A DNA stretch of 64,000 bases from Pseudoselenomonas ruminantium (GTDB taxonomy: Bacteria; Bacillota; Negativicutes; Selenomonadales; Selenomonadaceae): the NCBI RefSeq assembly GCF_900104055.1, contig NZ_FNJQ01000004.1, positions 1 to 64,000 on the forward strand, read 5' to 3'. Of this stretch, positions 2,878 to 11,676 are shown piece after piece (the stretch's first letter is position 1; each line of letters begins with the position of its first letter). The position numbers and the translations under genes were made by a program. Below the pieces are notes generated by a model that was given only the letters and a program-made list of their open reading frames with translations, was not told where the DNA came from and did no database searches.

Positions 2878-3549
2878 TCAAAGGGAAAAATACGCTTCTA
2901 CCGCCCGCAACAGAGTCAGGCGATTATCTCCTTTCAGGGGCAGCGGCGTGTCCTTGATAATCTTGAAGCACTCCGGTGCTGGCGTCAGCCTGGCCCGCTT
3001 GGTGCGATAGAGGAGCCGTCCCACCTCGGTGGGCAGGAATTCCAGACGCCAGCCCAGGCGCAAGTAGAGGCTCAGCCGTTCCACGCTGGCGCCGCATTTG
3101 ATGATGTTGCGCACTTCCATATCGGGAATGCAGTCATCATAACAGCCCCGGAAGGCCAGAATGTAATCGATGGTGCGCTGCAGCGGCAGAGTGGGTGAGA
3201 GGCTGCCAATGCCGCTGTCCATGGCGGTGACGGCCAGTTCCAGATAGGACAGGGTGCGGCTGCCGATGGTTTCTCGCAGCATCATGCCATTACCCAGCAT
3301 ATTGTCCGCCGCCATGCGCAGGGAGTCGGGATTGGTACTGTCAAAGACATAATCCTGCAGGAATTCCTCGGCGGAAAGATAGAAGCAGTCAATCTCCAAG
3401 GCCTTGCAGAACGTCTTGTAATCGGGGGGCTCCCCATCAATCACTTTGTCATACCAGCTCCAGAGATAGGTGAGCGTGGTAACCGTGCGTTCGTAGTAGC
3501 GTCCCAGCCAGAAGAGCCGGGAGGCTTTGCTTAATGGCATAGAATCCAT
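2878..3549 (-). CDS. Alpha-E domain protein (COG2307-like)
   Basis: This is a short, mostly helical protein (223 aa) beginning with a motif typical of the alpha-E family, SRLFWLGRYYER (about residues 10-21). The family is found almost only beside circularly permuted ATP-grasp ligases and transglutaminase-like genes. Its biochemical function is not established, though an accessory or scaffold role has been proposed. It overlaps the end of the ATP-grasp gene by 19 bp. The family is often near 300 aa, so this is a compact version. A GGAGGAGG ribosome site lies upstream, and an internal ATG at 3540 is an alternative start. Confidence 0.8.
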   Translation of the reverse strand: MDSMPLSKASRLFWLGRYYERTVTTLTYLWSWYDKVIDGEPPDYKTFCKALEIDCFYLSAEEFLQDYVFDSTNPDSLRMAADNMLGNGMMLRETIGSRTLSYLELAVTAMDSGIGSLSPTLPLQRTIDYILAFRGCYDDCIPDMEVRNIIKCGASVERLSLYLRLGWRLEFLPTEVGRLLYRTKRARLTPAPECFKIIKDTPLPLKGDNRLTLLRAVEAYFSL

Positions 3550-4841
3550 GTGTCCTTGAAACCTCCTCCTTGTGACGAGTTGACAACGAAGCTGTCGGGA
3601 TTGCGGGAAAAGCGGGTAAGGCCGCTGGGCCAGACCACGGGCTTTTCCGCCGTGAGGACAAAGGCCCTGAGGTCAGCCTTGCGCTGGACGATTTCCTCTC
3701 CTTCGGTCACGGGCATATCCTGGAAATCCACTACCTCCTGCGCGATAAAGCGGCGGGGAGAGGTGCGGATGGCAGCTTTTAGTTCATCGAGCTGGCCCTT
3801 GGTGAGGTCTTCGCCGAAGATGACACCATAGCCACCTGCTTCCGACACATCCTTGACGACCAGCTGGCCAATATGCTCCATGACAAAGGCAAAATCCTCG
3901 GGAAAATAGGGCAGGTAAGTCGGGGCGTTCTTGAGGATGGGCTCCTCGCCCAGATAATAGGAAACCATGCGGGGCACGAAGTAATAGATGCCCTTGTCAT
4001 CGGCCACGCCATTGCCCGGCGTGTTGAGGATGGCCACATTGCCGGCCATATAGGCATCCATCAGATTGGGAATGCCAATCAGGGACGAGGCCTCGAAGAA
4101 CAAGGGATCAAGATACTCATCGCTGATTCGGCGGTAAAGGGCGCCCACCTGAGTGGCCCCGCAGCTGGTATGGCAGTAAAGCTTGCGGTTCTCTACAAAG
4201 AGGTCGCCGCTTTCTGCCAGCACAGCGCCTGCCTGCTCGGCCAGATAGGCATGTTCAAAATAGGCGGCATTATAACGGCCGGGCGTGAAGATGACGTTGA
4301 TGCCGCCGGTGTTCACATAGTCCATGGTATGCTTGAGCAGTTTGCCATAGTCCCGGTTGTCTACCACCCGGTGCTGCCGGAAGGTGGCAGGGCTGCAGCG
4401 GCGGCAGAGTGTCCGGGCAATCAACGGATAGGAGGCCCCGGAGGGAATGCGCAAATTGTCCTCCAGCACATACCATTCCCCGTCCTTGCCCAAAACCAGA
4501 TCGATGCCGGAAATATGGCTGTAACGATCCTTGGGCGGTGTGATGTCCTCACATTGGGCCAGATATCCCGGCGAGCGGTAGACGAACTCCTCCGGCACGA
4601 TCTTGTCCTTGATGATCTTCTTCTCGTGGTAAATGTCATAGAGAAAATGATTTAAGGCGGCCACCCGCTGGGCAAGGCCCTTTTCCAACTGCCGGAAATC
4701 GTCAGCGGCAATTTGCCGGGGATGGGGATCAAAGGGGAACAGCCTTTCCTTGAAATTGCCATCCTTGTAAATCCCAAATTTTACGCCATAACGGGCGAGC
4801 TGCTCATTGATTTCATCTTTATGGGCTAGTAATGCGTCCAT
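3531..4841 (-). CDS. Circularly permuted ATP-grasp ligase (COG2308-like)
   Basis: This is the first gene of the five-gene minus-strand operon (436 aa). Family signatures are clear: EDNLRIPSGASYPL, TPGRYNAAYFEHAYLA, GNGVADDKGIYYFVPRM and VVKDVSEAGGYGVIFG, the last carrying the Lys-and-Gly-rich ATP-grasp element. Family members are predicted amide or peptide ligases that join amino acids or modify peptides with ATP. The product is unknown. The ATG at 4841 follows TAGGAGGGAG. Upstream lie a consensus-like promoter and a structured, terminator-containing leader, which suggests the operon is regulated by attenuation. Confidence 0.85.
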   Translation of the reverse strand: MDALLAHKDEINEQLARYGVKFGIYKDGNFKERLFPFDPHPRQIAADDFRQLEKGLAQRVAALNHFLYDIYHEKKIIKDKIVPEEFVYRSPGYLAQCEDITPPKDRYSHISGIDLVLGKDGEWYVLEDNLRIPSGASYPLIARTLCRRCSPATFRQHRVVDNRDYGKLLKHTMDYVNTGGINVIFTPGRYNAAYFEHAYLAEQAGAVLAESGDLFVENRKLYCHTSCGATQVGALYRRISDEYLDPLFFEASSLIGIPNLMDAYMAGNVAILNTPGNGVADDKGIYYFVPRMVSYYLGEEPILKNAPTYLPYFPEDFAFVMEHIGQLVVKDVSEAGGYGVIFGEDLTKGQLDELKAAIRTSPRRFIAQEVVDFQDMPVTEGEEIVQRKADLRAFVLTAEKPVVWPSGLTRFSRNPDSFVVNSSQGGGFKDTWILCH

Positions 4842-5042
4842 ATCGTCTCCCTCCTAGTCTTTTTCGGGCAAAGCAAAAAGTGCCTGACGGGCGGGGATAA
4901 ACCGCCACAGTCAGACACCTTTGTCCTGCCTTTGGTAGATGTGTATAGGCCGATAGCGTGTTATCCAAGGAGCGGGAAAGACAGAATAAAAGCCCGGACG
5001 AATCATTATCATTCGTCCGGGCTTCGTTGCCACGCTATCGAT
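4842..5042 (-). promoter_or_regulatory. Structured 5' leader, riboswitch-like, of the ATP-grasp operon
   Basis: The likely transcript starts just downstream of the -10 box at 5049-5054. Its first bases form a perfect 10-bp helix, 5031-5040 with 4951-4960. Inside it sits a perfect 14-bp hairpin, 5011-5024 with 4990-5003. Some 30 nt later comes a 9-bp stem, 4910-4918 with 4880-4888, ending in a U run before the ribosome site. A 5' closing helix, an inner hairpin, then a terminator is the layout of a cis-regulatory RNA. It matches no riboswitch class I can recall (cobalamin, TPP, SAM, glycine, M-box, ykkC and T-box were considered). The inner hairpin could instead be the rqcH terminator. Confidence 0.5.
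4875..4918 (-). terminator. Leader terminator upstream of the ATP-grasp gene
   Basis: On the minus strand a 9-bp stem (GTGTCTGAC with GTCAGGCAC, one U-G pair) has an additional GGCGG/CCGCC pairing inside it and is followed by TTTTTG. It ends about 35 bp before the start codon at 4841, so it sits where an attenuator would act. Confidence 0.65.
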
Positions 5043-5048
5043 GCTTTT

Positions 5049-5078
5049 ATTTTACGCGGAAAGACACATGTTTGTCAA
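5049..5078 (-). promoter_or_regulatory. Sigma-70-type promoter for the ATP-grasp operon
   Basis: On the minus strand TTGACA (5073-5078) and TAAAAT (5049-5054) are separated by 18 bp. The predicted start lies at the 5' edge of the leader helix, which supports the leader model. Predicted by eye only. Confidence 0.6.
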
Positions 5079-5144: not shown

Positions 5145-6908
5145 TTATGCTTGGGGATCCTGGGCCAGGATAGGGGCCAGTTCCTGTTCATCCGGGGTGA
5201 TGTAGAGGGTTTTCTGATTGGTGAAAATCACAAAGCCCGGTTTGCTGCCGGAAGGTTTCTTGACGTAGCGGATTTCCGTATAGTCCACGGGAACCTTGGA
5301 GGAGCCCTGTGCCTTGCTGAAATGGGCGGCAAGGCTGGCGGCTAAAAGAATATTATCCTCGCTAAGTTCTTCGCCGCCATTGCGTACGATCACATGGGAA
5401 CCGGGGATGTTCTGGGTATGAAACCAAGTATCATTGAAGCTGGCGGTCTTGCAGGTCAGTTTGTCGTTCTGGTAGTTGTTCTTGCCCACAAGGATCTGCA
5501 GGCCGTCTGGTGTAGTGAAGCGGAAGGGATGGGAGGGCTTGTCGTTGTTCTTGCGCTTGAGTTTTTCGCGCAGGTAGCCGCCCTCTACGAGTTCATTATG
5601 GATTTCGGCGATTTCGCCGAGGCTCGATGAAGCGGAGAGGGATGCTTCAATGCTTTCGAGATAGCTGATGGAAGCTTCGCATTCCTGCCGCTGTACCTGC
5701 AAAAGTTCCTGGGCGCGTTTGAGCTTGTCGTATTTTTTGTAGCAAAGCTGCATATTCTGGATGATGGTGAAACGCTGGTCGAGGGGAATCGTGATTTCCT
5801 CGCCGGTTTCACTGTAGATATTGACCACGGTGATTTCAGCATCTTCATGGTCATTATATTGATACTGATAGGTCATAAGGTTGTCGCCGCGGACTTTGTA
5901 TTCCTCGGCATTTTCGGCGGCGGCTATTTCCTCATCGAGCTTCACCAGCTTGTTTTCGGCGCGGTGCAGTTCGTTCTTCACGAGTTTCTTGAAGCGGTCC
6001 TTATCGGGCAGCACATAGCTGCCGGCCAGTGCGCTGGCCTTTTCGAGCATGGCGCTGATGGTATCGAAGTCCAATGTGACAGCCTGAGGCAGATAGTGGA
6101 GGGGGAAGGAGGCCATGGCCAGCACTTTCTGGTTTTCGTCCATCAGGATTACGGGCTGGGCTTCTTCACTGCTGGCGGCCTGGCGGATTTCGGCCAAAGC
6201 CTGCTCGATGGAAGTAAAGTCAGCTTCGTCCAATGTATTCAACCTGGTGCTCGGAGCAAAGCCCGCGCAGAAGCAGACTTCCTTAGCTGACACGGGGCCA
6301 AAGCCCATGCAGGCGCCAAGGATGGCTTTGTCGAGACGTTCTTGGCTGTCTGTTTCTTTGATGCGCTCCATGACTTGAGCCAGGTCTGTGGCAAAGAGGT
6401 CGAGCTTATCCTGCCCCGGGGGCAGTTCATAGGCATCGCCGGGCAGTACTGTGCGCACGCGGCTGCTGTTGCTGCCAATCTTGCGCAGAGCATCGATGAT
6501 AGTGCCATCCTGTACGAGGATGATATTGCTGTATTTGCCCATGAGTTCCATGACGAGCGTCTTGGTCACGATCTTGCCGCCCGCGGCAATGGAGTCCACA
6601 TCCATCAGGATCAGACGGTCAAGGCCGTGTTGACGGATAGCGGCAATGCGGCCGGTTTCCAGCTGCTTGCGGAGAACCATGCAGAATACGGGCGGTTCGG
6701 GCGGATTTTCCAGATTCTTGGCCATGATATGGGCGGCAGGATTCTGGGAATTGATGCTGATATGCAGTTGATGGTTCTGCCCCGGCTGGCGGATGGACAG
6801 GACGATGGATTGTTTATTGGGTTGGGTGATCTTATCGATGCGGCCCCCGGCAAGCTTGTCATTCAGCTCGCGCACGAGAGGACGCATGGAAAAGCCGTCA
6901 AGACTCAT
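5145..6908 (-). CDS. rqcH: NFACT-family ribosome quality control protein RqcH
   Basis: This 587-aa protein matches the bacterial Rqc2/NEMF/FbpA family over its full length. An N-terminal NFACT-N domain starts MSLDGFSMRPLVRELN, a long coiled-coil middle follows (about 290-440), and the C-terminal NFACT-R domain contains the HTQNIPGSHVIVRN stretch (about 505-520). RqcH binds obstructed 50S subunits carrying peptidyl-tRNA and recruits tRNA-Ala to add alanine tails that mark stalled chains for degradation. Older annotations call it a fibronectin-binding protein. The ATG at 6908 follows AAGGAG. It lies 65 bp after the GalT-like gene on the same strand. Confidence 0.92.
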   Translation of the reverse strand: MSLDGFSMRPLVRELNDKLAGGRIDKITQPNKQSIVLSIRQPGQNHQLHISINSQNPAAHIMAKNLENPPEPPVFCMVLRKQLETGRIAAIRQHGLDRLILMDVDSIAAGGKIVTKTLVMELMGKYSNIILVQDGTIIDALRKIGSNSSRVRTVLPGDAYELPPGQDKLDLFATDLAQVMERIKETDSQERLDKAILGACMGFGPVSAKEVCFCAGFAPSTRLNTLDEADFTSIEQALAEIRQAASSEEAQPVILMDENQKVLAMASFPLHYLPQAVTLDFDTISAMLEKASALAGSYVLPDKDRFKKLVKNELHRAENKLVKLDEEIAAAENAEEYKVRGDNLMTYQYQYNDHEDAEITVVNIYSETGEEITIPLDQRFTIIQNMQLCYKKYDKLKRAQELLQVQRQECEASISYLESIEASLSASSSLGEIAEIHNELVEGGYLREKLKRKNNDKPSHPFRFTTPDGLQILVGKNNYQNDKLTCKTASFNDTWFHTQNIPGSHVIVRNGGEELSEDNILLAASLAAHFSKAQGSSKVPVDYTEIRYVKKPSGSKPGFVIFTNQKTLYITPDEQELAPILAQDPQA

Positions 6909-11546: not shown

Positions 11547-11676
11547 AAACAACCTTCTTTCTATAAAAAATATAAAACGCCCTTTGTTTCTGCCGATAAA
11601 TAGAGACAGAAATCCTGTCTGCTTTGCCGGGGAGAAGCAAAAGGCGCCATTGCCTAAGAATATAATCTTTTATGCA
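11547..11676 (-). promoter_or_regulatory. Structured leader of the symporter gene
   Basis: Between the predicted transcription start (about 11676) and the start codon, the minus strand can form an outer helix pairing CGCCTTTT with AAAGGGCG (one U-G). It encloses two small hairpins, one TTTGC/GCAAA and one GACAG/CTGTC, and the closing strand runs straight into a T-rich tract. The layout resembles an attenuator or small riboswitch. I looked for glycine-riboswitch core sequences and did not find a convincing match on either strand. Confidence 0.4.

Follow-up and report, generated by a model that had tools for sequence, protein, structure and literature searches.

The leader of the ATP-grasp operon in the window (the whole analysed stretch of 64,000 nucleotides from Pseudoselenomonas ruminantium) is in all likelihood an ANTAR-type transcription attenuator with two units in tandem, which would be released by a REC-ANTAR protein under nitrogen control. 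Overlapping pairs of hexaloop hairpin and terminator, the conservation of these pairs, the pattern of the regulon and a gene for the regulator are all found in the sequences. An earlier note had proposed a ligand- or protein-controlled leader that matches no known class. The controlled attenuator of the ATP-grasp operon is supported, as the closing helix is kept in 7/7 comparable leaders and the leader remains in place without the neighbouring rqcH gene, but the ligand-binding riboswitch is not. Nor is the class new: both terminators carry the A1/G4 hexaloop of ANTAR targets, in two overlapping hairpins that the note had missed. The note had also hoped for a ligand that would point to what the pathway makes or uses. 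Instead, the nitrogen state is the signal to be expected, and a two-component ANTAR regulator would relay it, because the leader has A1/G4 hexaloops and no Rfam match, and because a covariance model built from ATP-grasp leader units (R1, see below) recovers the leaders of nitrogen genes.

Table 1 Positions of the leader elements, the operon and neighbouring features in the window
Feature	Position	Strand	Details
Promoter	5049-5078	minus	-35 TTGACA 5078-5073, -10 TAAAAT 5054-5049, spacer 18 nt; from sequence
Closing helix, 5' arm	5031-5040	minus	at expected RNA 5' end; abuts hexaloop 1 (base 5031 common to both)
ANTAR-type hexaloop hairpin 1	5020-5031	minus	GGC[AACGAA]GCC; loop 5028-5023, A1 = 5028, G4 = 5025
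Intrinsic terminator 1	4985-5025	minus	15 pairs 5025-4989, U tract TTTTATT; bases in common with hexaloop 1
Closing helix, 3' arm	4951-4960	minus	
ANTAR-type hexaloop hairpin 2	4913-4926	minus	GGAC[AAAGGU]GUCU; loop 4922-4917, A1 = 4922, G4 = 4919
Intrinsic terminator 2	4875-4922	minus	4922-4910 with 4888-4876, nested hairpin, U tract TTTTT 4879-4875; bases in common with hexaloop 2
Ribosome binding site	4849-4855	minus	AGGAGGG, 7 nt before ATG 4841
Circularly permuted ATP-grasp ligase	3531-4841	minus	PF14403/PF04174; operon gene 1
Alpha-E protein	2878-3549	minus	PF04168
Transglutaminase-like protein	2070-2846	minus	PF01841, PF08379
AstE/AspA-type deacylase	1135-2073	minus	PF24827
Second AstE/AspA-type deacylase	206-1138	minus	PF24827
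rqcH	5145-6908		other side of leader
Second leader	11596-11657	minus	hexaloop AGGC[AAUGGC]GCCU (11655-11642) and terminator-like region; before Na+:alanine symporter gene 11552-10131

The good promoter, the perfect 10-bp helix, the inner hairpin (terminator 1) and the terminator-type stem ahead of the ribosome site (terminator 2) that the earlier note had described are all present (Table 1). The promoter scan gave a consensus match of 11/12, and the 701-base region holds 3 promoter-like sites versus 0.9 in shuffles. Transcription is expected from the sequence to start at about 5044-5041, at the foot of the closing helix. Each hexaloop overlaps the 5' arm of its own intrinsic terminator, which makes hairpin and terminator mutually exclusive, and the two hexaloops lie 106 nt apart with terminator 1 in between. 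The predicted fold of the whole leader has an energy of -82.1 kcal/mol compared to -57.6 (sd 4.7) for shuffled sequences (z -5.2; 0/200 shuffles equal). Terminator 1 folds at -29.3 kcal/mol (5044-4985), and hexaloop 1 is predicted to fold first, ahead of synthesis of the 3' arm of this terminator. Terminator 2 was read from sequence and fold, and is missing from the consensus terminator scan because of its long loop; in the best predicted fold of hexaloop 2 the loop is closed further, with A1 paired to U6. Rfam covariance models gave no match at gathering score in the whole window, and at E ≤ 10 merely three sub-threshold matches to snoRNA/miRNA families between 4700 and 5200. Likewise, no repeat of the whole leader was found elsewhere in the same genome, save for a short match to the single unit before a 131-aa ORF (contig C41).

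The same arrangement recurs in other genera, where ATP-grasp leaders have in common an A1/G4 hexaloop hairpin, such as GAC[AAUGGC]GUC, that doubles as the 5' arm of a terminator. The leader scan comprised 95 sequences (80 loci that ranked best among the 84 of one genome scan, the window leader, and 14 from other genomes). Groups were assigned mostly by record titles, the Negativicutes-like group including one Desulfovibrionaceae (L117) and the Clostridia-like group one Thomasclavelia (L152); three pairs of records look identical (L115/G116, L116/G227, L118/G202), and one per pair was used in the unit and helix counts. A unit overlapping a terminator was found in 15/17 Negativicutes-like and 28/38 Clostridia-like leaders (43/55 together), compared to 23/275 dinucleotide shuffles and 3/55 reverse strands of these 55 leaders. 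Replacing A1/G4 by other letter pairs in the scan gave 2-12/55. Twelve of the 55 fail the A1/G4 test (2 Negativicutes-like, 10 Clostridia-like), several of them, by eye, with G at position 1. Elsewhere the unit is present in 0/8 leaders of Coriobacteriia, 1/7 of Bacteroidota and 3/25 others (Cyanobacteria, Proteobacteria and the like). Among 29 aligned units, which had been selected for A1 and G4 alone, three further bases never vary: A2, and the C and G that flank the loop on its 5' and 3' sides. Apart from the tandem leaders treated below, the family leaders looked at have a single hexaloop unit each.

These comparisons also bear on a new ligand-binding riboswitch, in which the helix-closed domain would be the aptamer and terminator 2 the expression platform. 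Such an element would indeed look like this: a 5' domain that is closed, stable and conserved, with a terminator-type stem behind it. However, the leader is without an Rfam match, the conserved part is the hexaloop/terminator unit, which occurs also without a closed domain in other family leaders and also before amtB and other nitrogen genes, and the loops of terminator 1 vary among relatives with no conserved pocket-like core (by eye). The riboswitch is thus highly improbable.

Even less credible, to the point of being almost negligible, is that the inner hairpin is merely the terminator of rqcH, although it starts 120 nt after the end of that gene and has a U tract at its end. Two genomes of the same genus, G013 and G017, keep the leader before the ATP-grasp operon with 71-73% identity over ~130 bases, while rqcH is on another contig or ~135 kb away. 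The hairpin is moreover downstream of its own promoter, and inspection by eye of the 170 nt that follow rqcH in 6 relatives did not show the element (the L048 stretch being partly N). G013 and G017 refute termination of rqcH as the sole role of the hairpin; it could additionally stop rqcH transcripts. Just after rqcH, at about 5125-5085 on the minus strand, there is a 14-base palindrome, TTTGCGGCCGCAAA, in a GATTACA...TGTAATC stem with a T-rich stretch behind it, and this stem is perhaps the true rqcH terminator.

In G013 and G017 a 131-aa ORF lies between the leader and the ATP-grasp gene; it has no confident family, its sole Pfam match being below cut-off. Four relatives (L073, L074, L115, L116) have the gene for the 131-aa protein immediately behind the leader and ahead of ATP-grasp. 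In the genome of the window this ORF is found on a separate contig (L252 428-823, G000:C41) with a hexaloop unit of its own. The ORF and the ATP-grasp operon thus seem to be parts of a split operon, with control apparently retained.

A candidate for the regulator is encoded in the same genome. Its one ANTAR gene (G000:C39:57876-58037) codes for a REC-ANTAR protein and comes directly after a GAF_PdtaS/HisKA_2 kinase (PdtaS-like). The best solved relatives of the REC-ANTAR protein are 1s8n (putative antiterminator) and 6wsh/6ww6 (EutV), matched over nearly full length. We take 1s8n to be PdtaR, Rv1626. 6WW6 is described as a structure of EutV with RNA (PMC8934654). The REC-ANTAR protein would be the one that acts on the window leader. 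Across 100 relatives, PF03861 (ANTAR) is present in 92, in 91 of them over cut-off. R1 matches were obtained in 42/56 ANTAR-bearing genomes versus 0/4 genomes (G029, G033, G078, G080) in which no ANTAR gene passed the cut-off. With laxer filters, nine ANTAR-lacking genomes gave an R1 match in 4/9 cases at E ≤ 1 and in 1/9 (G039) at E ≤ 0.1. Three of the nine have amtB (G033, G060, G078): no unit precedes amtB in G033 and G060, whereas G078, a genome 87% complete in which an ANTAR gene was not found, has tandem units there. In eight ANTAR-bearing genomes a unit is present in 11/12 amtB leaders. In combination, ANTAR gene and hexaloop unit go together, with exceptions, and the ANTAR-lacking genomes are only partly clean as a control.

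G078 is the case that would favour a different RNA-binding protein, rather than the ANTAR regulator, as the reader of the same hexaloop attenuators. This is improbable, given that A1 and G4 are the letters published for EutV and NasR (PMC3369931), that ANTAR genes are nearly universal among the relatives, and that the amtB leaders of G033 and G060 are without units.

The regulon was addressed with the covariance model R1, which was built from the 29 ATP-grasp units alone and run on the window, on its genome and on 60 relatives. Within the window, R1 scored unit 2 at 25.1 bits, unit 1 at 18.6 bits and a third site (11657-11596) at 18.7 bits, besides four weaker matches, of which one was inspected and lies inside a gene. 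The third site is the second leader of Table 1, and the Na+:alanine symporter gene behind it is probably in the same regulon as the ATP-grasp operon. That leader (11760-11596, minus strand) has its own promoter-like sequence. In the own genome, 7 matches were obtained at E ≤ 10 (150 of 621 first-pass candidates scored), each of them individually weak (best E 0.013, unit 2 E 0.09). They are unit 2 of the leader, the alanine symporter, an amino-acid-type ABC transporter (C44), the 131-aa ORF (C41), a broken ABC-ATPase-like frame (C21), and two on C30 and C70 that are seemingly chance; unit 1 and the genome's own tandem amtB leader are absent from these seven. On C21 the unit (L195, G000:C21:19653-19698) precedes a frame whose beginning resembles the ABC-transporter ATPase of G008 (L217) and which stops after ~40 residues, probably a broken gene.

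Among the relatives, an R1 match at E ≤ 0.1 was found in 42/60 genomes. The best match was taken from 29 of the 42, one per genome, and the gene behind it was defined as the longest reading frame starting within 400 nt. Three of these matches are ATP-grasp leaders. The 26 others are followed by 11 ammonium transporters, 2 alanine symporters and 3 amino-acid permeases, and by one each of an aminotransferase, a YcsF protein, an aromatic amino-acid lyase, an M20 peptidase, an amidohydrolase, a molybdopterin-dehydrogenase FAD subunit, an ABC ATPase and a Lar_N protein, with 2 lacking a recognised gene; many of the amtB matches are orthologues within one genus. A canonical second hexaloop shortly upstream was rejected as a general feature, since a further hexaloop ≤ 60 nt upstream was seen at 4/26 R1 sites compared to 1.84 expected by shuffling. 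A direct search for amtB (best 30 loci, one too short and dropped) showed at least one strict unit in 28/29 leaders and two in 24/29; 1450 shuffles gave 20 with a strict unit and 0 with two, and the reverse strand 0/29. A loose parse classed 30/35 amtB leaders as tandem, and the genome's own amtB leader (L283) is likewise tandem. These data suggest that the ATP-grasp operon is a new member of the nitrogen regulon, and that the operon itself may have a nitrogen role. The latter would agree with an observation on the Anbu protease of Pseudomonas putida: its operon shares the ATP-grasp/Alpha-E/transglutaminase core, and its level goes up when nitrogen is limiting (PMC5666114), which likewise hints at a nitrogen context for the ATP-grasp operon.

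The closing helix was compared, by script and by eye, in the seven family ATP-grasp leaders with a unit 1 (G000, G013, G017, G116, G213, G227, G216), which had been picked by eye. A helix of 9-13 pairs is present in 7/7, connecting the bases just 5' of hexaloop 1 (offset -1 to +3) with bases 3-23 nt before unit 2. One pair is mismatched in the G017 helix, and G216 has a degenerate unit 2. Across the seven leaders, 0-22/1000 shuffles of the 3' region reach the helix score, the window leader accounting for 2/1000. By eye, the pair following the common UAG/CUA core is C-G, U-A, U-G or A-U, and further compensatory changes replace G-C by A-U before AUAG and give U-A, A-U or G-C two positions further on. 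In the window the helix is predicted to contribute ~12 kcal/mol (-44.6 kcal/mol, versus -32.7 with the 3' arm blocked). Judged from these comparisons and folds, the closing helix is genuine, conserved with compensatory changes, and a novel element of such a leader; the conservation among relatives on which the earlier note had made its proposal depend is thus borne out.

A fair share of tandem amtB leaders in Negativicutes have helices of this kind. These helices are unrelated in sequence, e.g. CCATCAACAGATA/TAGCTGTTGATGG (G001), AACAAGATAGTT/AAGTATCTTGTT (G061) and TTACAAATAAA/TTTATTTGTAG (G078). Counting a helix when ≤ 10% of shuffles reach it, the survey of tandem Negativicutes leaders found one in 16/22 with a hexaloop spacing above 65 nt versus 2/14 at or below; the corresponding numbers for amtB leaders alone are 10/16 and 2/14. 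The relation between spacing and helix over all leaders (Fisher p 0.0016, Spearman p 0.009) is descriptive, because the 65-nt cut-off was set post hoc and the leaders are related. The choice of hexaloop 1 looks wrong in G071, G024 and G012, and these rows were retained in the spacing counts. Mean helix scores were 20.1 with the leaders' own 3' regions versus 15.3 with swapped ones (22 leaders). Conversely, 10 tandem ATP-grasp leaders of Clostridia (L119-L124, L137, L140, L147, L188; spacing 52-96 nt) have no comparable helix. Only L120 and L188 among them pass the 10% limit, their helix being made of A/T pairs alone and stopping 8 nt short of hexaloop 1, at an apparent -10 box. The closing helix is therefore not general there. 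In Mediterraneibacter and relatives (L119-L124, L188), the tandem units before the ATP-grasp operon are of the types AGC[AAGGGC]GCU and GAC[AAAGGC]GUU, and at least L120 and L188 have a separate hairpin between both units.

The following sequence of events is proposed. Without signal, RNA polymerase would halt at terminator 1 or, if past it, at terminator 2. When nitrogen is short, the PdtaS/EutW-like kinase would activate the REC-ANTAR protein, which would hold hexaloop 1 and then hexaloop 2 as each emerges. As the hexaloop uses bases of the terminator 5' arm, the terminator cannot form while the hexaloop is held. Antitermination would then lead to expression of the ATP-grasp/Alpha-E/transglutaminase/AstE operon along with amtB and other nitrogen genes. 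Binding, signal and antitermination are inferred here, and without protein on hexaloop 1 the stable terminator 1 would be expected to win. The closing helix could form solely after terminator 1 has been passed. When terminator 1 was blocked in the fold prediction, the closing helix was kept and the hexaloop-1 hairpin was absent from the best structure; therefore, either protein would be needed to hold this hairpin or the helix displaces it. In G013, G017 and G216 the helix absorbs the stem of hexaloop 1, as if it might release the protein.

What the helix does can be read in two ways. The two units may be independent single-hexaloop attenuators in series, with a helix that does not couple them but keeps unit 1 insulated from unit 2 and shields the full-length mRNA at its 5' end. 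Such a role is quite possible, its chances being a little below even. It would accommodate the single unit of other family ATP-grasp leaders, the Clostridia tandem leaders without comparable helix, a helix that begins at the expected 5' end and can form solely once terminator 1 has been passed, and the genome's own amtB leader, which by eye has an 8-bp helix around both units instead. Two observations speak against it: the helix abuts hexaloop 1 in all seven leaders, and the Negativicutes helix tracks long spacing (with the post hoc cut-off given above). The most likely single job of the helix, though more tentative than the ANTAR assignment and less probable than not, would be to loop out unit 1; hexaloop 1 would then sit on a helix with its foot 23 nt from hexaloop 2, and the protein could pass between the hexaloops. 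A still wider proposal is rather unlikely as a whole: that the ANTAR leaders of Negativicutes form a distinct class, with the whole first attenuator looped out by a covarying helix at the 5' terminus and far-apart hexaloops thereby juxtaposed, one ANTAR dimer being handed on in a two-step gate, with the same device at amtB and at the ATP-grasp/Alpha-E/transglutaminase/AstE pathway, so that this orphan pathway would serve nitrogen scavenging or storage. Passage of the protein and the distinct class are both rated slightly lower because of the Clostridia leaders without comparable helix.

The leader is very probably a tandem variant of the known kind of ANTAR attenuator with an extra end-to-end helix; the helix looks like a new twist, and its function may be one of those considered above. 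A1/G4 hexaloops overlapping terminators, with the 13-mer AGCAANGRRGCUY, are reported to be strongly linked to nitrogen genes and to lie mostly at these (PMC3369931). The ANTAR motif was published as two hexaloops close together before one terminator (PMC3369931), and the minimal binding motif was later redefined as one hexaloop (PMC8934654). The EutV/EutW attenuators of the Enterococcus faecalis eut operon (PMC3369931, PMC8934654) resemble the window leader in the A1/G4 hexaloop, in a stem of at least 3 pairs, and in the overlap with the terminator 5' arm. Its CAAxG core fits the published 13-mer, and both systems combine a two-component REC-ANTAR regulator with several attenuators per regulon. 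In contrast, the window leader has one terminator per hexaloop, a spacing of 106 nt and a long-range helix at the 5' end, and here the target is an ATP-grasp peptide-ligase operon and the kinase has a GAF_PdtaS sensor part. Other such attenuators, those of NasR/NasT and AmiR, belong to single loci of nitrate or amide use, and the sensing by their regulators differs. The NasR/NasT (nitrate) and AmiR attenuators follow the same hexaloop/terminator principle (PMC3369931). The ANTAR nitrogen regulon of Desulfotomaculum acetoxidans, six transcription units with 13 or more attenuators between them (PMC3369931), is similar in its ammonium transporters, other nitrogen genes and several attenuators per operon. 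It differs from the present one, which is found in the class Negativicutes and has closing helices and an ATP-grasp/Alpha-E/transglutaminase operon as target. The terms "transglutaminase" and "DUF404" are absent from the main text of PMC3369931. A literature search, mostly at the level of abstracts and with "antar" also catching Antarctic words, found nothing on ANTAR control of the ATP-grasp operon or on closing helices.

This links an orphan amide-ligase operon to a probable regulator and to nitrogen supply as its likely physiological setting, and so suggests a condition in which to seek the product of the pathway. The leader is also a natural test of the distance permissible between two ANTAR hexaloops, since lengthening the linker by 20 nt is reported to abolish antitermination (PMC8934654). 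The same study proposes that the dimer binds a recruitment hairpin first and then passes to the antitermination hairpin.

The five-gene operon itself is spread from Negativicutes to Lachnospiraceae, Coriobacteriia and Bacteroidota. It is seen in records titled Eggerthellaceae, Adlercreutzia, Slackia and Olsenella (L125, L128, L129, L136, L149) and in others titled as Bacteroidota (L145, L148, L163, L164, L166). The hexaloop unit is absent from all but one of the 15 leaders of Coriobacteriia and Bacteroidota, suggesting that the operon was transferred to these groups and re-wired locally.
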